From an uncultured Flavobacteriales bacterium (GTDB lineage: Bacteria > Bacteroidota > Bacteroidia > Flavobacteriales_D > Sanyastnellaceae), in contig CAJQLF010000048.1 of NCBI GenBank assembly GCA_905479115.1, forward strand, positions 1 to 64,000: a DNA stretch of 64,000 bases, read 5' to 3'. The notes under the pieces were generated by a model. It worked only from the letters and a program-made list of their open reading frames with translations, ran no database searches and was not told where the DNA came from. This document shows, in pieces, positions 39,974 to 50,777 of this stretch. Position 1 is the stretch's first letter, and each line of letters begins with the position of its first letter. Position numbers and translations under genes: made by a program.

Positions 39974-42900
39974 ATGTGGATGGAAAGTAACTTGAACTTT
40001 GTAAGGGAGATGCTGCGGTGCAGCGCTGCTTCCGCCGTTGCAGTTGCTGTTCTATCGGGGCCACTTCAAGCTCAAACGCTTTTCTCCAATGCTTCAGAAT
40101 CAGCCGGCGTTGCCATCGATGGACTGCATCATTCCGTCGCCATTGGAGATTTTGACCGGGATGGCCGAGAGGACATCTACGTCGGCACCAAATTCGCTCC
40201 CAACGCTTTATTTCGAAACAAGGGAGGTATGCAGTTTGAAGAGGTGAGCATTCCTGCAGGCGTCGACGATGATGGCACGACGAATGCAACACTTTGGGGT
40301 GACTTCAATAACGACGGTTGGCTCGACTTGGTAACCGGAAATTACTTGCAAGCCAACCGGCTGTACATCAACCGGGGAGATGGCACGTTTGAGGATGCTA
40401 CAGCAGATTGGAATGCTGGCAATGAAGGGCCATGCCGCAGTTTGCACGCGGCGGATTTTGACCAAGATGGCTGGCTCGACTTGTACGTCGTCAACATCAA
40501 CAGCCACAACGCCATGCTCAGAAATACAGGCGGGAATGGATTTCAGAACATCACTTTTCCCACGGGAACCGTCGATACAGGAATTGGAATGGGCGCCTTA
40601 TTTTACGATTCGGACAACGATGGTGATGTCGACTTGTATGTGACCCATGATGGCAACCAAGTCAATAAGTTCTTCAAGAACAACGGGAACGGTTCTTTTA
40701 CAGAATGCGCTGCAGAGGTGGGCCTGGACTATCAAGGAAACTGCATGGGCGTAGACGCTGCGGACATCAACCATGACGGCTGGATGGATTTGTACATTTC
40801 CGACCTCTACCCCAGTGAGTTATTCCTGAACAATGGAGACGGAACCTACACTTCAGTCGGCACCGAGGCCGGTGTGGACGATTCAGGAATGACCTGGGGA
40901 TGCGTATTCTTTGATTACGACCACGATGCCGAATCCGACTTGTACATCGCCAATGATTACGCATTTGCTCCGCTCCCCAATCGATTGTATCGGGGATTGG
41001 GGGACGGTACGTTTGAATGGATCAACCCAAGTGATAGCATTTTGCAGCACAACCATTCCGATTATGGATTGGCTTCCGGAGATTTAGACGGGGATGGCGA
41101 TTTGGATTTGGCCATCGCTACGAGCGGTTCACCCACTCAGCCCGGATTTCAAATTTTGGAAAACCTCAATCAGTCAGGGCATTTTCTTGGACTCCAACTG
41201 GAAGGAACGAGTTCGAACCGGTCGGCGGTGGGCACCCGAATCGAAGCCCATTTCGGCGGGCAAGTCCGGTATGACGAAGTGCATTGTGGTCAAGGGTACA
41301 GCGGAGCGAGCTCTCTGCAAGTGCACATAGGACTGGGCGAATTGACCCAGGTGGACTCGGTGTTTATTCGATGGCCCAATGGCATCCTTTCCAGCCACGG
41401 TTCCTTCGGTGCGGATAGCGTTTACCATGTGCTCGAGCCCGGTAACGCACCTTGGTTCTCGATAGGATGCACGGATTCGGATGCCTGCAACTTTCACATG
41501 GCCGCGACTGAAGATGATGGCAGTTGCTCTTACCCGCTGGCCGGTTTGGACTGCATGGGTGAACCATTGGAAGGGTATCCGACGATAGCGACGCACAGCG
41601 TTGCGCGTGTTTGGAACGAGGCCCTGTTGCTGAGCATTCGACACGACTGGGCGCGCCCCACCGTGCATGCGCGCAACTTATGGCATACATCGGCTTTGAT
41701 GTACGATGCCTGGACCGCGTGGGCTCCACCCTCGCCGGTTGGACCGCAGCATTGGTTGCTCGGAGATACCGTGAGTGGCTTTGCGTGTCCTTTTGATGGA
41801 CTCGCATTAGACCTCGACTCGGTGGACGTTATCGACGCGCGGAGACGCAGCATTAGCTTCGGAGCGTACCGGCTGCTAAAGCATCGATTTACCAATGCTC
41901 CCCGCGCAGAACGCATCGCCGTGCACCTCGATTCGCAAATGGAGGCATTGGGGTACGACACCGCGTGGAATTCGACCGATTACACCACGGGGAGCTGGAG
42001 CGAGCGTGCACAATCCCTTGGGAATTACCTCGCAGAACAGTACATCGCCTTTGGCCTTCAGGACGGATCTTTTGAGGAAATCGACTATCAGAACACCTAT
42101 TACAATCCCATGAATTGGAATTTGGTAATGGATGAGCCCGGCAACCCCAATATGTTTTTTCCAAATCGCTGGCAACCGCTTCAATTAGCAGAATTCATTG
42201 ACCAATCGGGCAACGAAGGAACCAATTTTTCACCGGATTTCTTGAGTCCCGAATGGGGCAACGTTGTGCCCTTTGCCATGTCTGCGGAGGATACATCACG
42301 GTATGCGCGGCTGGGCAGTTGGTATACCGTGTACCACGATCCCGGAATGCCTCCTCAAATCGATCCGGACGAATCAATCGCATTGGAAAGCGACTACAAA
42401 TGGGGGCATGCTTTGGTCAGCCTTTGGTCTTCGCACTTGGACCCGGCTGATTCCGTTGTTTGGGACATCAGCCCCGGTTCCTTTGCGTGGGATGGCTTTT
42501 TCCCCAACTCCATGTCATCCGCTCGCGACTACTATACGGATGAGGGCACGCCATTTGCCGAGGGCATTGAGGTTGGGCACACCTACAACCCGACCACCGG
42601 TCTACCGTATGTTCCGCAACCGGTTTTTCGCGGCGACTTCACCCGGGTGCTTGCTGAATATTGGGCCGATGGACCTGACTCGGAAACACCGCCTGGTCAT
42701 TGGTTCACGCTATTGAACTATGTCAATGATCAGCCTGAATTGGAACGGCGATGGCGAGGAATCGGTGAGACGTTGGCTCCCTTGGATTGGGATGTCGTTG
42801 CGTATTTCGCTCTGGGCGGAGCCATGCATGACGCGGCCATTTCGGCATGGAGTTGCAAGGGCTGGTACGATTCTGCTCGCCCAGTCTCGGTGCTACGATG

Positions 42901-43726
42901 GATGGCAGATCGCGGCCAATGTTCCGATCCTGAATTGCCCAACTTTGATGGAGCCGGCTTGCCTTTGGTTCCAAATGAGATCGAATTGATCACAGCCAAT
43001 GATCCGATTGCGCTGCGGGGTGCCGAAGGGGAATTCATCAACGAGATCAAAATCCGAAGCTGGAAAGGACCTGACTTCATTGAAGTGCCCGCACTCAACA
43101 AGGCAGGGGTCGGTTGGATCCGCGCCAGCGAATGGTGGCCTTATCAGCGTCCCACGTTTGTCTCTCCGCCCTTTGCAGGGTATGTGAGTGGACACTCTGC
43201 GTTCAGCCGAGCAGCAGCGGAGGTCCTGACTGCGATCACAGGAGACCCTTTCTTTCCAGGAGGTTTGGGGACATTTCCTATTGAGGCCAACGAATTCCTT
43301 GTGTTTGAAGATGGGCCAAGTGAGAGCTTTGAACTTCAATGGGCGACCTACCGGGATGCAGCTGACCAGAGTGGACTTTCAAGAATTTGGGGAGGGATCC
43401 ATCCGCCTCAAGATGATTTTCCAGGACGGATGATCGGAGAAATTGTGGGCATGGATGCGATGCTGTTGGCAGAACAATATGCCTTTCCCTTGCTGGGTGC
43501 GGATTGCTTCGAGGTAACCGGTTATCCCTGTTTATGTCCCGGAGACTTCAACTCGGATGGCATGCGCAACCTGCCGGATTTGTTGCTGCTTCTCATCCAC
43601 TTTGGAGAGACCGTTTCCATCACTGGCGCCGGAGCTTCTCCGGTCATAGACCTCGATGGTTCAGGCGATATCAACACAGGCGACTTGCTCGGGATGCTCA
43701 CCGTTTGGGGGCAACCCTGTGACTGA
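39974..43726 (+). CDS. secreted FG-GAP/ASPIC-UnbV - vanadium haloperoxidase-like - dockerin-like fusion
   Basis: A 1250-residue exported protein. After a signal peptide (ending about residue 35) come seven or so FG-GAP/VCBS propeller repeats with calcium loops (DFDRDGREDIYVG, DFNNDGWLDLVTG, DSDNDGDVDLYV), then an ASPIC/UnbV domain to about residue 490. A Cys-rich linker (GCTDSDACNF...DDGSCSYP) follows. The next 650 residues are a PAP2/vanadium-dependent haloperoxidase-type domain with the complete pocket: Lys962-x6-Arg969-Pro970, Ser1072-Gly-His1074 and Ser1136-Arg1137-x5-His1143. The last 65 residues form a dockerin-like pair of calcium loops (DFNSDGMRN, DLDGSGDIN). No T9SS tail is present. 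It could oxidise halides or hydrolyse phosphate; the motif alone cannot distinguish these. Confidence 0.85.
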   Translation: MWMESNLNFVREMLRCSAASAVAVAVLSGPLQAQTLFSNASESAGVAIDGLHHSVAIGDFDRDGREDIYVGTKFAPNALFRNKGGMQFEEVSIPAGVDDDGTTNATLWGDFNNDGWLDLVTGNYLQANRLYINRGDGTFEDATADWNAGNEGPCRSLHAADFDQDGWLDLYVVNINSHNAMLRNTGGNGFQNITFPTGTVDTGIGMGALFYDSDNDGDVDLYVTHDGNQVNKFFKNNGNGSFTECAAEVGLDYQGNCMGVDAADINHDGWMDLYISDLYPSELFLNNGDGTYTSVGTEAGVDDSGMTWGCVFFDYDHDAESDLYIANDYAFAPLPNRLYRGLGDGTFEWINPSDSILQHNHSDYGLASGDLDGDGDLDLAIATSGSPTQPGFQILENLNQSGHFLGLQLEGTSSNRSAVGTRIEAHFGGQVRYDEVHCGQGYSGASSLQVHIGLGELTQVDSVFIRWPNGILSSHGSFGADSVYHVLEPGNAPWFSIGCTDSDACNFHMAATEDDGSCSYPLAGLDCMGEPLEGYPTIATHSVARVWNEALLLSIRHDWARPTVHARNLWHTSALMYDAWTAWAPPSPVGPQHWLLGDTVSGFACPFDGLALDLDSVDVIDARRRSISFGAYRLLKHRFTNAPRAERIAVHLDSQMEALGYDTAWNSTDYTTGSWSERAQSLGNYLAEQYIAFGLQDGSFEEIDYQNTYYNPMNWNLVMDEPGNPNMFFPNRWQPLQLAEFIDQSGNEGTNFSPDFLSPEWGNVVPFAMSAEDTSRYARLGSWYTVYHDPGMPPQIDPDESIALESDYKWGHALVSLWSSHLDPADSVVWDISPGSFAWDGFFPNSMSSARDYYTDEGTPFAEGIEVGHTYNPTTGLPYVPQPVFRGDFTRVLAEYWADGPDSETPPGHWFTLLNYVNDQPELERRWRGIGETLAPLDWDVVAYFALGGAMHDAAISAWSCKGWYDSARPVSVLRWMADRGQCSDPELPNFDGAGLPLVPNEIELITANDPIALRGAEGEFINEIKIRSWKGPDFIEVPALNKAGVGWIRASEWWPYQRPTFVSPPFAGYVSGHSAFSRAAAEVLTAITGDPFFPGGLGTFPIEANEFLVFEDGPSESFELQWATYRDAADQSGLSRIWGGIHPPQDDFPGRMIGEIVGMDAMLLAEQYAFPLLGADCFEVTGYPCLCPGDFNSDGMRNLPDLLLLLIHFGETVSITGAGASPVIDLDGSGDINTGDLLGMLTVWGQPCD

Positions 43727-43738
43727 TGCTCGTTGGCG

Positions 43739-45973
43739 TTAATGATGATTCGTATGGACCACCAATTCATCCAAGAACATCCATGTCGCTGAACTCGCTG
43801 CATCGTGCCAATCTGGGCAAAGACCTGGATTGACCGCTTCAATTCGGACCCACTTCGCCTCAGCATTGACGGCAACCGCGACACGGGCGACATCCTGCGA
43901 ATCATTGGGTATGAAAGTCGCCTCTCCGAACGTCGCCTCTCCCAATAACCAATCTCCATTCCATACTTGTCCGTCCATGGACCACTGAAACCGCAGCGAA
44001 TCAGGCAGGAAAATCCAAGCGTCCTGGTAGCGGTAGAATTGCATGCTGAGGGAATCGATGTGGACGGCTTCAGCCAACTCAATCGTTGCACCCATATCGC
44101 TTTCTTGGACAGCTTGCCATGAACCGTCTCGAAAATCTTGCGAACCCAAGCGTCCGTCAGCCAAGCCTTGTTCTCCCCTTCCCGGGTAATATGAATTCAC
44201 TTCATGATCTAATTCAATCGATTGGAAAGCGCCCACATGACCGGCAACGGGAAACGTCCACGGAGTCCCCATGGAAATCCCCTTTCGCATCAACTCCACC
44301 CGGATTTCTCCTTCCCCAACAACCGAAAATAATTCACCCAACGAATGAGATGCCTCGGGCGCGTCTTTACGATAGGGAACATAGGTCGCCACCCCCTCAA
44401 TTCCCGACATCGCTGGCTCAAACTGCACCTCCAGCGCTGTTTTGGTGCGAGCCGCATTCCAGTGCATCGAAATGGGCACCGTCTCCCAGCCGTACTCCAC
44501 TCCCCATGCATCCAATCTCGAATAATGCCGCTCCATGCGCAATCGAAAGTCGGACCAATCTCGCTGCTCTGGCTGGCTCCACAGCACCTCGCTCATGGCC
44601 ACCAACCGAGGAAAAACCTTGGAATCAACCAGGTGTTGAGGAGCGCGTTCTGTCCACATGTTGCATTCGCCACCCAATATGCGTCCGGATCCTTGCAAAT
44701 CGGTCGGCACCGGCTCAAAGCCATAGACCTCCTCGAGATCGGTCGACTCCACGGGGTAATCAAAATAGCAATGCGAAGTCGGCGACATGATGGCGTCATT
44801 TCCTGCGGCAATCGCCGCCTGACCTCCTTCCATACCCCGCCAAGATTGCACCGTCGCTCCAGCCGGTAATCCGCCTTCGAGGATTTCGTCCCACCCGATT
44901 ATCTTGCGTCCTTTCGCCTCGAGGTAACGACCGATTCGTCCGATGAACCAGGATTGTAATTCATGTTCATCGTGCAATCCTTCCTCGTCGATCCGACGCT
45001 GACACTTGGGGCAGACCTCCCACCGCACCTTGGGCGCCTCATCGCCTCCGATGTGAATGTACTCGGAGGGAAAGAGCTCCAAGACCTCGTCAAGCACCGT
45101 CTCCAAGAACGCGAACGTGGAATCCGAGCCGGCGCAGTATATGTCCTTGAATACCCCCCAATCGTGCGGCACTTCCATCTGCTCCCCGGTGCACCCCAAC
45201 CACGGGTAGGCCGCCAACGCCGCGTTGCTGTGTCCGGGCAATTCGATTTCTGGGATGACCGTAATCTGCCGGGTAGCGGCATAGGCCACGATGTCTCGAA
45301 TTTGGTCCTTGGTGTAAAAGCCTCCATGCGTTGAACCGTCAGCTTCTGTGCGCCAAGCGCCTATTTCTGTCAATCGCGGATAGGCATCTATTTCAATCCG
45401 CCAGCCTTGGTCTTCGGTCAAATGCCAATGCAACACATTCATTTTATGCAACGCGAGCAAATCGATCATTCGCTTCACATACTCTGGCTCCATGAAATGC
45501 CGACAACAGTCCAGCAACAAACCGCGATGTGGAAAGCGGGGAGCGTCTTGAATCAATCCGTGTGGCAGCGCTACCTCGCCCGAAACTTCCGTGGACATCA
45601 TCCAGCGCAAGGTGGTTAGCCCGTAGAATGCCCCCGTTTCTGTCGATGCAAACACCTCGATCCCCTCCTTGCTTACACGCAGTTCATACCCTTCATCCGC
45701 AAGGCCTTCCTTTTGGATCACCTTTAAATTCACCGCCAACGCGTGGGAATCCATCCGATCCACTTGCAGCCAGTCTTGCCATACCGGCGAGACCACTTCC
45801 CACGAAGGGTCCACAGACCAATTCCATTGGCCCGTGATGCACAAAGATTCATCGGAAGCTTTCTCCCATTTGGTAGGCAGAGGAATCAGCGTTGCTGAAA
45901 ATTCGGTGACTTCCGGCGGGGTGCAGCCCCCTGCCAATATCGCAGCGACTGCGAATCCTATCCATTGCTTCAT
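43739..45973 (-). CDS. GH20 beta-N-acetylhexosaminidase lipoprotein
   Basis: A 744-residue lipoprotein (lipobox LAGGC, Cys17) that should cut terminal beta-linked GlcNAc or GalNAc from glycans at the cell surface or in the periplasm. After the GH20 N-terminal domain, the barrel shows PHRGLLLDCCRHFM, HWHLTEDQGWRIEI, PEIELPGHSNAALAAYP and the catalytic Asp-Glu pair in YIHIGGDEAPKVRWE. The C-terminal 150 residues look like a discoidin/F5-8-type carbohydrate-binding module. It is the last gene of a four-gene operon, 8 bp after the NTase-CutC fusion. Confidence 0.92.
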   Translation of the reverse strand: MKQWIGFAVAAILAGGCTPPEVTEFSATLIPLPTKWEKASDESLCITGQWNWSVDPSWEVVSPVWQDWLQVDRMDSHALAVNLKVIQKEGLADEGYELRVSKEGIEVFASTETGAFYGLTTLRWMMSTEVSGEVALPHGLIQDAPRFPHRGLLLDCCRHFMEPEYVKRMIDLLALHKMNVLHWHLTEDQGWRIEIDAYPRLTEIGAWRTEADGSTHGGFYTKDQIRDIVAYAATRQITVIPEIELPGHSNAALAAYPWLGCTGEQMEVPHDWGVFKDIYCAGSDSTFAFLETVLDEVLELFPSEYIHIGGDEAPKVRWEVCPKCQRRIDEEGLHDEHELQSWFIGRIGRYLEAKGRKIIGWDEILEGGLPAGATVQSWRGMEGGQAAIAAGNDAIMSPTSHCYFDYPVESTDLEEVYGFEPVPTDLQGSGRILGGECNMWTERAPQHLVDSKVFPRLVAMSEVLWSQPEQRDWSDFRLRMERHYSRLDAWGVEYGWETVPISMHWNAARTKTALEVQFEPAMSGIEGVATYVPYRKDAPEASHSLGELFSVVGEGEIRVELMRKGISMGTPWTFPVAGHVGAFQSIELDHEVNSYYPGRGEQGLADGRLGSQDFRDGSWQAVQESDMGATIELAEAVHIDSLSMQFYRYQDAWIFLPDSLRFQWSMDGQVWNGDWLLGEATFGEATFIPNDSQDVARVAVAVNAEAKWVRIEAVNPGLCPDWHDAASSATWMFLDELVVHTNHH

Positions 45974-45981
45974 GGTGCAAA

Positions 45982-47520
45982 TTAGGAAACACCTGTACCA
46001 AACCAATCCCGAACGCGCTGCGGATTGACCGGATGGGTGGTGCCGTCAAAAAGCCGAGTGGGTTGCTCCACTGCTTGTCGACACGATGCATGAAAATTTC
46101 GTACCCCCAATTCCATCCAGGCATCGCGTTGTTCTGGGCCCACTCCACTGCCGACAGTGACATGAAAGCCCGCCTTCATCCATTGTTCAATCCGCTCTCG
46201 CCCTGCCCACGCTGCGGTCTCCCCTCCACTGGTTAAGATACGCCTGATCCCGATCTCAGCCAACTGCACCATTGCTTCTTCCTGATTCAAACAGGCATCC
46301 AATGCTCGGTGCACCACCAACCGGTGAGGGCCAAAGGTGTTCGCCCAATTTTGAAGCATCTGCGCATCCAGCCGTCCATCGGCGAACAAGCCGCCGACGA
46401 CCACCCGGCTGGCACCGGCGTCAAGCGCTCCCTGGATTTGGGCCTTCATCAACTCTTTTTCGGCGGCTGAATACACAAAATGCCCAGCACGGCATCGGAT
46501 CAACGCATGCACAGGGATGCCATGAGAGCAGGCCATTCGAATGTCAGATTCTGGCGCAGTCAATCCACCACATTCCCAATGCGCGCAAAGCTCCACCTGA
46601 TGGGCTCCATTTTCCGCCGCCATCCGCACATCCTCTGGCGTGCTTGCACACACCTCCAATTGGAACGGCTCCATCAGATGCAATCCCTTTTGAACAAGGT
46701 CAACATCCTGCAATCGGGTTAAGTCCAAAACTTCTTGTTCAACATCCCATTGCCCCATGTTGTGGCCGGCGTCCATCATAGCTTGAAGGGCCGTCGGTAA
46801 TTCCAATTCTCCTCGTTCAGCGTGCGGTTCGAGTGCTTCCAAAAAAGGCATCAGGGTCTCTGCATGCAATCGAAAAATATTCATGGATACCCGCACGGGC
46901 CCGGCAGCTGCAAGGCGAGCAACTTCCTCCTCCGAGGGTTTTTCAATGATGCGGTGGATCGATTGACCGTCGCCTTCCAAAATGGCGAATGCCATGGTTT
47001 TGGCAGGGTCCAGCCCCAGCGCCCTTCGGTCATAGGCCAGCACGGCTTGGCCCGCAGGAATTGTCCTCAACTGCGCCAAGGCCGATCGGGTGGGCAGGTT
47101 GTCGCCGTTGCACAGAATCCACGTTTTGCCAGAGGGGACAGGATCTTTTTGAAGTGCGCTGCGCACGGCATCTCCTGTTCCCAAAGGCGAATCCTGCATC
47201 ACGCAGCGAATGCGCATCCGAAGGCCTGTGCGGGTTTCATTCCACGATTTTAGAAACGGCTCTGTGACCTCATCGGATGGGGCAATGACCAGGGTTGCCT
47301 CCGTGAATCCTGCCCGCAAGGCCTGCTCCAAAATGAATTGGATCATGGGTTCCTCATTGGGGCCCACTCGGATCATAGGCTTGGGGCGGTTCTGCGCATC
47401 GCTCACCCAAAGTGCTGCGTCCGCTGCATCGCCTGCGCTGCGCTTCATGCGGCTTGCTCGGCCAGCTGCCAATATGACGATTCGATCGCATGTCATGGGT
47501 GCAAGGTCTGAAATGTTCAT
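45982..47520 (-). CDS. sugar nucleotidyltransferase fused to CutC domain
   Basis: A 512-residue, apparently cytoplasmic fusion. Residues 10-285 are a nucleotidyltransferase: LAAGRASRMK at 17-26 (signature loop), Lys-Pro near 47, GTGDAVRSA at 114-122, CNGDNLP at 137-143 with the metal Asp140 and EKP at 193-195. Residues 287-512 are a complete CutC TIM barrel: LEVCASTPEDVRMAAENGAHQVELC, VHALIRCRAGHFVYS, VVGGLFADGRLD, HRALDAC and RILTSGG. CutC is named for copper tolerance, a role that is disputed. Here it is physically tied to an NDP-sugar-forming enzyme between a sugar kinase and a hexosaminidase. The start overlaps the kinase stop by 4 nt. Confidence 0.88.
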   Translation of the reverse strand: MNISDLAPMTCDRIVILAAGRASRMKRSAGDAADAALWVSDAQNRPKPMIRVGPNEEPMIQFILEQALRAGFTEATLVIAPSDEVTEPFLKSWNETRTGLRMRIRCVMQDSPLGTGDAVRSALQKDPVPSGKTWILCNGDNLPTRSALAQLRTIPAGQAVLAYDRRALGLDPAKTMAFAILEGDGQSIHRIIEKPSEEEVARLAAAGPVRVSMNIFRLHAETLMPFLEALEPHAERGELELPTALQAMMDAGHNMGQWDVEQEVLDLTRLQDVDLVQKGLHLMEPFQLEVCASTPEDVRMAAENGAHQVELCAHWECGGLTAPESDIRMACSHGIPVHALIRCRAGHFVYSAAEKELMKAQIQGALDAGASRVVVGGLFADGRLDAQMLQNWANTFGPHRLVVHRALDACLNQEEAMVQLAEIGIRRILTSGGETAAWAGRERIEQWMKAGFHVTVGSGVGPEQRDAWMELGVRNFHASCRQAVEQPTRLFDGTTHPVNPQRVRDWFGTGVS

Positions 47521-48587
47521 GAAACACGAATGACTTCGATACCCGGTGCGCCGAGCTCCACGGGAATGGCCTCTGCATCGCGTTCGGTCAACGTCCGATG
47601 AATCGCCTGGACCGCTTCAGCGTTGCTTACGACAAACGATGTCCCGCCTCCACCGGATCCGTTGATTTTTCCTCCAAAGGCCCCAGCATTAATGGAAGCC
47701 TCGAGCAATCCGTCGATTTTTGGCGTGGACACTTCGAGGCCATGGGAAAGCCAATGGTGGTGAGCCGTAAGCAGTTCTCCGATTCCTTCTATGGCTCGCG
47801 GTTGAGATGTGAGTAGCCCTCCACCGCGGCTGGATACCTCCCGTATTCCAATGGTAGCATCCATCAGGCGATGCTCCGCAGCGTTCCAATCTTGAGGCCG
47901 GGCAGGAAATACGTCAGGCCACTCTTCTCCTAATCCCACTCCCCATTGGGAAATCAGTTCCAAACGACGCTCCTTCGCACTAGAAAGTATGCTGAGGGTC
48001 TCTTTGGGTTGATGAGAATCAATCAACGTCCAAACTCCCTCGGGTTTGGGCAGTTGGGTGGTTTGAAACTTCGGTGTGAATTCGATTTTTCTGGTGCCGC
48101 CCATAGCGCACATCACTTGGTCCATCATACCACCAGGTTCGTTGAACCATTGAACTTCCGAACGCCATGTTGCATGGGCAATCCACTCGCGACCGGCCTC
48201 GTCGTCCACAACCCGACCGTTCCTCAAAGCAATGAGCGCGCACCATGCAGCTGTCAAAGCACTGGAACTGCTCGCACCGGCTTGCTGTGGGATTTGACTG
48301 GTCACTCGGGCATTCCAACCCACGGGCGGCAACCACCCTTCCTTCTTGGCTACATGCAACGCAGAGAGCCAATAGTCCCGGGGTCCCGGTTCAGGAAGCG
48401 AATCCAAGTCCCACTCTCGCGAGGTCCCCAAATCAAGCAAGTCAAGGTGCACCCGCCGATCACTGCGCGCTTCACTTTCAATGGTGCCACGTAACCCAAT
48501 CGCCGATGCAACTACCGGAAACCCAAAATAATCTTGGTGTTCTCCAAACAGGCAGATCCGACCAGGCGCTGATGTCAAAATCCTCAT
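47517..48587 (-). CDS. galactokinase-like GHMP sugar kinase
   Basis: A 356-residue GHMP kinase. The N-terminal PGRICLFGEHQDYFG resembles the galactokinase signature (GExxDY), the ATP loop is QAGASSSSALTAA, NEPGGMMDQVMCAMGG carries the catalytic Asp and GGKINGSGGGGTSFVV is motif III. It should phosphorylate the anomeric or another hydroxyl of a free sugar; galactokinase-type kinases include GalNAc kinases (human GALK2). It overlaps both neighbours by 4 nt, and a nucleotidyltransferase follows directly, which fits a sugar-1-phosphate product. Confidence 0.88.
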   Translation of the reverse strand: MRILTSAPGRICLFGEHQDYFGFPVVASAIGLRGTIESEARSDRRVHLDLLDLGTSREWDLDSLPEPGPRDYWLSALHVAKKEGWLPPVGWNARVTSQIPQQAGASSSSALTAAWCALIALRNGRVVDDEAGREWIAHATWRSEVQWFNEPGGMMDQVMCAMGGTRKIEFTPKFQTTQLPKPEGVWTLIDSHQPKETLSILSSAKERRLELISQWGVGLGEEWPDVFPARPQDWNAAEHRLMDATIGIREVSSRGGGLLTSQPRAIEGIGELLTAHHHWLSHGLEVSTPKIDGLLEASINAGAFGGKINGSGGGGTSFVVSNAEAVQAIHRTLTERDAEAIPVELGAPGIEVIRVS

Positions 48588-50341
48588 CCCCGCGAACGAT
48601 TCAAGGCGAGGACGATCACAGTACACCCTAAGGCGAGTGCCGCGAGCAATCCGGCCGTCATCGTTTCAGCATACAACCACGAACCCGTGGCAATGAGCGC
48701 AGCATAAACACCTACGCTGCCGAATACCATCGAGGCGATGCCCCGAGGAAGAGACCAGGGCTCTCCGTCGTTTGCTCCCTTCCACCGCGACCAGCCCGGA
48801 CCGCCTGGATTGACCTTATTGACAAAATTTTGCAACGTCTCCTCCGATTCAGCTGGGGTCAACCAAGTCGCTATTAACCAAATCAAGGTGGTAATCAAGG
48901 AGCCCCACACCAATTTTTCATGGCCTGCAAGCTCCCACATTCCCCATGCGTCATGTACAAAAGTAAAATACCCTGCGACCACGAGAGACCCCCCCATCGC
49001 CACCAATTCCGTCCATGCGTTGATCCGCCACCAAAACCAACGCAAGATGAACAACCCTCCTGTCCCCGCTCCGATGAGCAAGAGCAAGTTGAAGGCTTGG
49101 CCAGCATCGGTCAAAGCAAGCCCCAATCCACTGCCCAGAACGAGCGAAACCACGGTCGCCCAGCGACCGGCGCTGACTTGCTCAGCATCCGTCGCTTCTG
49201 GTTTGATGAAACGGACCCAAAAATCATTCACGAGGTAACTCGCGCCTAAATTCAATTGCGTGGACATCGTGCTCATGAATGCCGCCAACAGAGACGCTGC
49301 GACCAAGCCCAATAGCCCTGGAGGAAGAAGGGATAGCATCGCTGGATAGGCCAAATCATGGCCGATTTTATCGGCTGGGATATTCGGGAAGGCCTTTTGC
49401 AAATCCGCGAGGTCTGGAAACACCACAATGGAAGCAAGCGCGATCAAGATCCAAGGCCAAGGTCGCAAAGCATAGTGCGCGACATTGAACAACAGCGTCG
49501 CACCCACCGCATGCGACTCATCTTTGGCACTGAACATCCGTTGAGCAATGTAGCCACCGCCCCCCGGTTCCGCTCCGGGGTAATAGCTCGCCCACCATTG
49601 AACCGCTAACGGGACAAGTAAAATTGGAATCCATTGGCTCGGATCATGCAAGTCAGGGAACATGGAAGTTTTAGGTGCTACATCGGCATGGGACAACAGA
49701 GCATCCAACCCTCCGATCACCTCCAAGTCCAATATGTACATGCAAGCCCAAACGGACCCGATCATGGCCAAAATGAATTGAACAAAGTCTGTGAGAATGA
49801 CGGCTCGCAAGCCCCCCAGCGTGCTGTAAATAAGTGTGATGATCCCCGTAACCAGCAGGGTTTGCCACCCCGGCCACCCCAGCAAGATCCCCCCCAGTTT
49901 GATGGCCGCAAGGGACACTGTGCCCATCACAAGCACATTGAAAACCAACCCCAAGTACAAGGCTCGAAATCCGCGAAGCACCGCAGCAGGCTTGCCGCCA
50001 TAGCGCAATTCATAAAATTCAATGTCCGTCAGCACTCCTGATCGACGCCACAGGCGCGCATAGACAAAAACAGTTAGCATCCCTGTGAGCAAAAACGCCC
50101 ACCAACCCCAATTGCCGCTCACCCCTTGTTCTCTCACCAGCCCCGTAACCAAGTTGGGAGTGTCGGTTGAAAATGTGGTTGCCACCATGCTGATGCCCAG
50201 CAACCACCACGGCATATTCCGACCGGCCAAAAAGAAGCCCGTCGCGGTTTTTCCAGCCACCTTCGATGCCCACAAACCTACCCCCAAGGCGAGGGCAAAG
50301 TAGGCTCCAATGATGGCCCAATCCAATCCGGTTATCTCCAT
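48584..50341 (-). CDS. sodium:solute symporter (SSS family)
   Basis: A 585-residue SSS/SGLT-type transporter with 13-14 membrane segments, beginning MEITGLDWAIIGAYF. The first helices show FFLAGRNMPWWLLGISMVATTFSTDTPNLVTG (read in parts), the Na+ site region; AEPGGGGYIAQRMFSAK is the SGLT sugar-transporter signature region. It is first in the operon with the kinase, NTase-CutC and GH20 genes, so the substrate is probably the sugar these process. The ATG at 50341 was chosen over an extension that runs through the upstream gene. Confidence 0.9.
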   Translation of the reverse strand: MEITGLDWAIIGAYFALALGVGLWASKVAGKTATGFFLAGRNMPWWLLGISMVATTFSTDTPNLVTGLVREQGVSGNWGWWAFLLTGMLTVFVYARLWRRSGVLTDIEFYELRYGGKPAAVLRGFRALYLGLVFNVLVMGTVSLAAIKLGGILLGWPGWQTLLVTGIITLIYSTLGGLRAVILTDFVQFILAMIGSVWACMYILDLEVIGGLDALLSHADVAPKTSMFPDLHDPSQWIPILLVPLAVQWWASYYPGAEPGGGGYIAQRMFSAKDESHAVGATLLFNVAHYALRPWPWILIALASIVVFPDLADLQKAFPNIPADKIGHDLAYPAMLSLLPPGLLGLVAASLLAAFMSTMSTQLNLGASYLVNDFWVRFIKPEATDAEQVSAGRWATVVSLVLGSGLGLALTDAGQAFNLLLLIGAGTGGLFILRWFWWRINAWTELVAMGGSLVVAGYFTFVHDAWGMWELAGHEKLVWGSLITTLIWLIATWLTPAESEETLQNFVNKVNPGGPGWSRWKGANDGEPWSLPRGIASMVFGSVGVYAALIATGSWLYAETMTAGLLAALALGCTVIVLALNRSRG

Positions 50342-50363: not shown

Positions 50364-50723
50364 TCAGAATCCGAGCGCAACTCGCTGTTTTTTTGAAAAA
50401 CCGGCCACCACCCGTTCATAACTGTGATCAATCCATGCCAGGATCCGCTCTCGTGGAACATCCGATTCTGCCCGCACGGTATTCCAATGCCGCTTGTTGG
50501 CATGCCACCCGGGTGCGACACCATCATACGCCTCCCTTAATTCCAGAGCTTTTTCCGGATCGCACTTCAAGGTGACCCCGGAAAAATCATCCAAGTTTGC
50601 CAAGGCAAACACCTTGCCCGCCACCTTCCAAACGCAAGTTTGGGCATCAAAAGGAAACTCCTCGGACACATGGCTTTTCAGCAAGCAATGTTCCCGAATA
50701 TCATCGAATTCAAACGTTCGCAT
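50364..50723 (-). CDS. MmcQ/YjbR family protein
   Basis: A 119-residue MmcQ/YjbR protein (CyaY-like fold) with the family pattern VWKVAGKVFALANLDD, VTLKCDPEKALELRE, PGWHANKRHWNTV and WIDHSYERVVAGF. Often labelled DNA-binding, but the function is not settled. Start is the ATG at 50723. It is directly upstream of the symporter operon on the same strand, 22 bp away, and may be co-transcribed with it. Confidence 0.87.
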   Translation of the reverse strand: MRTFEFDDIREHCLLKSHVSEEFPFDAQTCVWKVAGKVFALANLDDFSGVTLKCDPEKALELREAYDGVAPGWHANKRHWNTVRAESDVPRERILAWIDHSYERVVAGFSKKQRVALGF

Positions 50724-50777
50724 CAAATTTGGGCTTTTCGCCGTTAAATTGCACCGATTTTCACAAACACCAAACTC

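Follow-up and report, generated by a model that had tools for sequence, protein, structure and literature searches.

The window considered here is a stretch of 64,000 nucleotides, positions 1-64,000 of contig CAJQLF010000048.1 (assembly GCA_905479115.1), from an uncultured bacterium of the Flavobacteriales (Sanyastnellaceae). Its minus strand carries an array of four genes which, in order, encode an SSF-family symporter, a GHMP sugar kinase, a nucleotidyltransferase that is fused to a CutC domain, and a GH20 hexosaminidase. The symporter and kinase genes overlap by 4 nt (ATGA), the kinase and fusion genes do so as well (ATGA, 4 nt), and a gap of 8 bp separates the fusion from the GH20 gene. 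The open reading frame (ORF) calls in this respect agree with an initial annotation of the same DNA. The array is viewed here as an amino-sugar salvage unit, with CutC a cytosolic enzyme of that same pathway rather than a copper protein, a reading which is given a probability of roughly two in three.

The first gene (48584..50341, minus strand) encodes a Na+/solute symporter (PF00474, E 9.5e-37) that is predicted, with the substrate being a matter of context, to import the released sugar. Its ORF reaches 50527 from an upstream ATG, with 50341 the likely start. The kinase (47517..48587, minus strand) is of the galactokinase, that is, anomeric type, with PF00288, PF08544 and PF10509 all above cut-off and with its PGR..GEHxDY motif, catalytic Asp region (ggmMDQ) and GSGGGG loop aligning to those of solved galactokinases, e.g., 1s4e. 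Its ORF begins as far upstream as a GTG at 48626, with the ATG at 48587 the likely start. Against the galactokinase equivalog TIGR00131 it scores 77.8 bits, the cut-off being 226.65, and it likewise falls below the mevalonate kinase equivalog cut-off. The N-terminal portion of the fusion (residues 1-~278; 46686..47520, minus strand) is a sugar-1-phosphate nucleotidyltransferase domain by both PF00483 (NTP_transferase; 38.2 bits vs. a cut-off of 21.2, E 1.6e-9, residues 44-258) and PF12804 (NTP_transf_3; 34.3 bits vs. 27, E 3e-8). Its nearest solved structures are mannose-1-phosphate guanylyltransferase and UTP-glucose-1-phosphate uridylyltransferase, and its scores lie far below the equivalog or subfamily cut-offs of all of the named nucleotidyltransferase models that were tried (Arch_glmU, GlmU, RmlA, GalU, MurU and ManC-type). 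As neither kinase nor nucleotidyltransferase reaches an NCBIfam equivalog cut-off, their sugar is not assignable from these models.

The C-terminal portion of the fusion (residues 285-512; 45982..46668, minus strand) is a CutC (beta/alpha)8-barrel (PF03932, 133.8 bits vs. a gathering score of 23.3, E 7e-39, residues 287-480), which scores 121.9 bits against the CutC equivalog NF008603, for which the cut-off is 311 bits. The last gene of the array (43739..45973, minus strand) encodes a GH20 beta-N-acetylhexosaminidase (PF00728, PF02838), with PF00728 covering the catalytic domain nearly end to end (1-347 of 348, E 2.8e-111). Its ORF opens at 46006, the ATG at 45973 being the likely start, and its N-terminus, MKQWIGFAVAAILAGGC, read from the translation as containing a lipobox (LAGGC), predicts a lipoprotein.

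The fusion is one open frame of 512 aa (47520-45982, minus strand) without an internal stop, and its CutC domain is the only CutC in the window genome. Nineteen of 21 same-genus genomes encode it at near full length (53-79% identity), the remaining two being one with a C-terminal fragment only and one, 95% complete, that is without the fusion. A second genus of the same family (genome G029) possesses it at 50% identity. The fusion ORFs of these relatives, at 499-521 aa, are uninterrupted, and such stops as were flagged fall upstream of the start codon. The claim of the initial annotation that nucleotidyltransferase and CutC are one protein therefore stands, i.e., an assembly error or internal stop can be rejected given that the uninterrupted fusion recurs across the genus and in a second genus. 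The order symporter, kinase, fusion, GH20 is constant within the genus wherever a contig is long enough. A seeming tri-fusion of kinase, nucleotidyltransferase and CutC in G029 (a 746-aa ORF) was rejected, as there the kinase stop and nucleotidyltransferase start overlap as ATGA. The CutC domains of the fusions group together in a single clade (support 0.98), which falls within the stand-alone CutCs of this family. A CutC-containing frame of more than ~400 aa was found, among 133 genomes of the phylum with CutC above cut-off, only in the window genome, and within the set of listed genomes the architecture occurs in no more than two genera, both of one family. As to counting, L032 and G015 apparently are one contig (each 212,141 bp long, with 61% identity) that ought to enter the tally a single time, and L032 and L065 probably represent one genome among the fusion rows. 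A search of viral contigs found no CutC relative.

What CutC is doing within this array is suggested especially by the company that it keeps elsewhere. Up to 20 kb around CutC were taken from genomes of the order and of the phylum, with ORFs called mechanically and then clustered. The recurrent neighbors are an amidase of family PF01112 (glycosylasparaginase/isoaspartyl peptidase family), GH20, and GH2. At position -1, amidase (29) and GH20 (30) together account for 52% of 113 non-fusion loci, and at position +1, GH2 (23) and GH20 (10) account for 29%, vs. 8 of 806 genes (1%) among those at least five genes distant. The resulting Fisher p of 1.5e-48 treats loci as independent, uncorrected for relatedness, and a count by families is therefore the safer one: At least one same-strand gene for amidase, GH20 or GH2 lies no more than two genes from CutC at 63 of 114 loci, representing 16 of 23 families. 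Most GH20-CutC and CutC-GH2 junctions consist of 1-4 nt overlaps. GH20 adjoins CutC in the window's genus members and at many other loci. Outside of the window's own order it is the PF01112 amidase that is the commonest immediately upstream gene in the Bacteroidota. From family and context, this amidase would be a true GlcNAc-Asn amidase (GlcNAc being N-acetylglucosamine) and the GH2 enzyme a beta-mannosidase; one Hymenobacter record does annotate the amidase as of the GlcNAc-Asn type. The neighboring amidases carry twin-arginine-like leaders and CutC is without a signal peptide, for which reason CutC is read as cytosolic.

Certain further neighbors were limited in their occurrence. On a Persicobacter plasmid (L222:4989-6978) a PNGase F homologue (PF09112/PF09113) lies 8 bp downstream of CutC, the pair itself lying downstream of SusC/SusD-like ORFs. 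PNGase F as a general CutC neighbor is not supported beyond Persicobacter. Genes for ribosomal protein L19, DNA polymerase I, Rho, GTP cyclohydrolase and RNase Y also neighbor CutC, and were set aside as housekeeping genes of limited lineages. At one locus (L144:7464-10244) CutC stands beside a glucosamine-6-phosphate isomerase domain joined to a PIG-L GlcNAc deacetylase domain.

The association extends to other phyla, as seen among annotated replicons. Catabolic islands may be over-represented on those of them that are plasmids; for the Bacteroidota, the data come mostly from chromosomal contigs. CutC thus sampled lies near nagA, ROK, a phosphosugar isomerase and a sugar ABC transporter in Paracoccus; near nagA, nagB, ROK and GH20 in Kozakia; near SIS and nagA in Sphingomonas; and near GH20 and an MFS transporter in Peteryoungia, as also in Loktanella but there with nagB. 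Sinorhizobium has the order amidase-ROK-CutC, close to nagA, SIS and a GlcNAc kinase, Listeria has CutC near a phosphotransferase system (PTS) and a SIS protein, Alkalihalophilus has it near a fucosidase, ROK and a dipeptide transporter, and in Aeromonas ROK is directly upstream. Across bacteria, the genes most often found with CutC serve either to release GlcNAc (the glycosylasparaginase-type amidase, GH20) or to use it (ROK kinase, NagA, NagB). On plasmids of Rhodobacterales and Rhizobiaceae (L204, L209, L211), M81-family metallopeptidases are repeatedly found next to CutC together with GH20 or ROK.

In sister genera the same parts are found rearranged. In two of these (g3 and g14) a single protein of ~640-650 aa unites the homologous kinase and nucleotidyltransferase, and at several loci it is directly followed by a stand-alone CutC and GH20. 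In a third (g10), symporter, kinase and nucleotidyltransferase are separate neighboring genes, with CutC-GH20 found elsewhere. It is in g1 and g9 that nucleotidyltransferase and CutC are fused, and unfused versions of the two also adjoin (L099, L142). The symporter is found beside kinase or CutC in the window's genus, and beside the kinase-nucleotidyltransferase or CutC in g3 and g10. As one nucleotidyltransferase family has been drawn into two different fusions, kinase, nucleotidyltransferase and CutC can be argued to serve one pathway. Alternatively, the nucleotidyltransferase-CutC protein could have arisen by chance from neighboring genes that were transcribed together and share no reaction, since adjacent genes do fuse and this architecture is seen in just the two genera. 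This is unlikely, however, as the key CutC residues are kept in all of the fusions, both domains are retained across the genus at 53-79% identity, nucleotidyltransferase and CutC adjoin even when not fused, and the operon-level link recurs in 16 families. Some of the CutC-GH20 operons of g14 and g3 (L078, L140, L142) include as well a biopterin-dependent aromatic amino acid hydroxylase homologue, an alpha/beta hydrolase, a PLD-domain protein of the type IX secretion system, and an upstream TonB receptor.

The window genome, which is 99.5% complete, contains no ROK protein that could be found and no NagA above cut-off. It does encode two PF01112 proteins (contigs C53 and C40) and a PNGase F domain protein (contig C50). 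Given this lack of ROK and of a NagA above cut-off, C1 kinase plus nucleotidyltransferase would be this genome's most plausible route for those N-acetylhexosamines that GH20 releases, which is in support of the salvage route proposed in the initial annotation. In sequence, then, the GH20 lipoprotein would release an N-acetylhexosamine, most likely GlcNAc from the ends of N-glycans or chitobiose, which the Na+ symporter would bring into the cell. The galactokinase-type GHMP kinase would phosphorylate this sugar at C1, and the nucleotidyltransferase would convert the resulting N-acetylhexosamine 1-phosphate to a nucleotide sugar, together replacing the usual NagK/NagA route, which is apparently absent. 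CutC would act at the reducing end of the amino sugar, by glycosylamine hydrolysis, anomer interconversion, or isomerization.

That CutC belongs to amino-sugar metabolism in some capacity is very probable. The carbohydrate role which the initial annotation had posited for it is strongly supported, and by much besides the fusion, namely, the neighbor enrichment, the nag, ROK and GH20 genes of other phyla, and the shuffling of domains. The substrates posited along with it, i.e., a sugar phosphate or nucleotide sugar, are not supported as a general role, as stand-alone CutCs sit with ROK 6-kinases and NagA or else with secreted amidases, where no nucleotide sugar is made. The phosphorylating enzyme furthermore differs between CutC loci (ROK, BadF, PTS or GHMP), which favors a free sugar or glycosylamine as substrate over any particular phosphate or nucleotide sugar. 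The likeliest target of CutC would be the imported amino sugar as such, acted upon at the reducing end.

The links to amidase and PNGase F suggest glycosylamine or anomer chemistry at C1. AGA yields a glycosylamine. For peptide:N-glycanase a glycosylamine is named as product in PMC9102325. CutC may, tentatively, hydrolyze the beta-glycosylamine (1-amino-GlcNAc) stemming from AGA or PNGase F, or instead interconvert GlcNAc anomers on behalf of an anomer-specific kinase. Consistent with such C1 action are the upstream prevalence of AGA-type amidases, the PNGase F adjacency in Persicobacter, and that the window's own kinase and nucleotidyltransferase also work at C1. In addition, CutC is present in 18 of the 23 genomes with a strong PNGase F match vs. 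134 of 393 overall, uncorrected for relatedness. On the other hand, the amidases carry export signals and CutC does not, so that a glycosylamine may hydrolyze prior to import, and many CutC operons have GH20 without amidase.

Structure was considered using the CutC domain modelled on its own, the AlphaFold2 model of the full-length fusion (pLDDT 48) being unusable. The domain model (pLDDT 73, pTM 0.76) best matches solved CutCs (TM ~0.78), with the next folds, apart from designed nanocages, some of which apparently are built on such barrels, being those of KDPG aldolase and 3-keto-L-gulonate-6-phosphate decarboxylase (KGPDC). The CutC profile in addition weakly reaches deoxyribose-phosphate aldolase (DERA; E 7e-5). 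Ten residues are at least 97% conserved in 127 stand-alone CutCs (E289, R308, E310, C312, G319, R342, F348, H404, D408, H477), and all of these except R308, which is Q in the window, are identical in all 18 fusion rows. A Schiff-base aldolase, as the distant likeness to DERA might suggest, is not favored because no lysine is found among CutC residues conserved at above 85%. CutC as an isomerase or epimerase of an amino sugar or its phosphate (interconverting, for example, GlcNAc and N-acetylmannosamine or GlcNAc and N-acetylgalactosamine), comparable to NanE-type barrels, would fit with a TIM barrel whose closest folds are sugar-phosphate and sugar-acid barrels, with the conserved acid, base and Arg residues, and with the sugar-phosphate isomerases and Gfo/Idh enzymes that neighbor CutC in Paracoccus and Pseudoalteromonas. 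The idea is rather doubtful, as a conserved lysine is again missing, unlike in NanE, whose catalysis has been proposed to require a lysine (PMC8482478), and as variation in phosphorylating enzymes from locus to locus makes a fixed phosphosugar substrate awkward.

That CutC is instead what its name implies, a Cu(I)-binding homeostasis protein whose place in a sugar operon and fusion are incidental or serve to supply metal to a glycan enzyme, is highly improbable. The family name, its annotation, PDB entries so labelled, and the high conservation of C312 speak for it. The E. coli cutC copper phenotype, however, has been attributed entirely to loss of the small RNA MicL (PMC6538781), and the overexpression phenotype is explained by the sigma-E response (PMC6338753), making the name weak evidence against a sugar role. 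The second cysteine, C291, moreover is absent from 38 of 127 stand-alone CutCs, and it is sugar genes, not copper genes, that recur among the neighbors.

A number of observations nevertheless weigh against an amino-sugar CutC or against details of the pathway as drawn. Conservation of C312 at 97% leaves metal binding possible, and a glycine-rich loop at beta-7 (G457, G459) recalls phosphate-binding barrels and would fit a phosphosugar substrate. Four sampled loci, i.e., E. coli yecM-cutC-torY and those of Parabacteroides, Enterococcus and Entomospira, lack a sugar link, as do the CutC loci of three Bacteroidota families (f22, f28, f30). PF01112 takes in isoaspartyl peptidases as well, adjacency of PNGase F and CutC was found in no other genome with coordinates, and a weak BadF-type kinase match in the window genome means that another GlcNAc kinase is possible there. 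The literature searched yielded no established enzyme reaction for CutC.

Flanking the array are two further genes. Convergent to GH20, at 39974-43726 (plus strand), is one for a 1250-aa protein with FG-GAP/UnbV_ASPIC repeats, C-terminal dockerin-like repeats and, by eye, a vanadium-haloperoxidase-like motif (GHSAFSRAAAEVL); an ORF of 1240-1286 aa occupies the same place in most of those genus members whose contigs extend far enough. Immediately upstream of the symporter gene, at 50364-50726 (minus strand), is a gene for a YjbR/MmcQ-family protein that is kept in many genus members.

Various known systems resemble the array in part. AmgK-MurU, an anomeric sugar kinase plus uridylyltransferase, salvages cell-wall sugars. 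It is alike in that an anomeric kinase is followed by nucleotide-sugar synthesis, bypassing the 6-phosphate route, and differs in that the window's kinase is GHMP rather than of the APH fold and its nucleotidyltransferase scores 17.7 vs. a MurU cut-off of 250; the window operon thus has neither an APH-fold AmgK nor a MurU equivalog, and would at most function in a like manner. Plant FKGP and Bacteroides Fkp are bifunctional GHMP kinase/pyrophosphorylases, in which a sugar-1-kinase is covalently joined to a nucleotidyltransferase, as in g3 and g14. The zebrafish glucuronokinase-UP, likewise such a bifunctional enzyme, has the domain order nucleotidyltransferase-kinase (PMC3938481), whereas g3 and g14 have kinase-nucleotidyltransferase and in the window the nucleotidyltransferase is joined instead to CutC. 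Solved CutCs (Shigella 1twd/1x7i, human 3iwp, 2bdq, 4r9x) share the same barrel and conserved residues at ~30% identity, but are single-domain, whereas that of the window is fused to a nucleotidyltransferase within an amino-sugar operon. The usual home of stand-alone CutC in the Flavobacteriales is the amidase-GH20-GH2 cluster, of N-glycan core type. The window operon has only GH20 and CutC in common with it, joined by transporter, kinase and nucleotidyltransferase, and neither PF01112 amidase nor GH2 lies beside the operon among window ORFs by Pfam.

Conservation of CutC reaches from bacteria to humans; many databases list it as a copper protein, and structures have been solved for members from four species. 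A search of the literature, with subscription papers outside of its scope and earlier priority therefore possible, found no earlier proposal of an amino-sugar role. Taken together, the statistics on operons, both types of fusion, and the nag/ROK neighborhoods across phyla point to one testable pathway with a short list of substrates. It might even be speculated that the whole family, human CUTC included, consists of amino-sugar enzymes rather than copper proteins, i.e., glycosylamine hydrolases or anomerases acting on the GlcNAc reducing end following deglycosylating amidases and hexosaminidases, an unrecognized step of N-glycan/GlcNAc catabolism that here has become fused to nucleotide-sugar salvage. 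If CutC is an amino-sugar enzyme, then a wide misannotation would be corrected, including copper-resistance counts in genome papers, amino-sugar or N-glycan catabolism would gain a step, and the study of human CUTC would have a lead.

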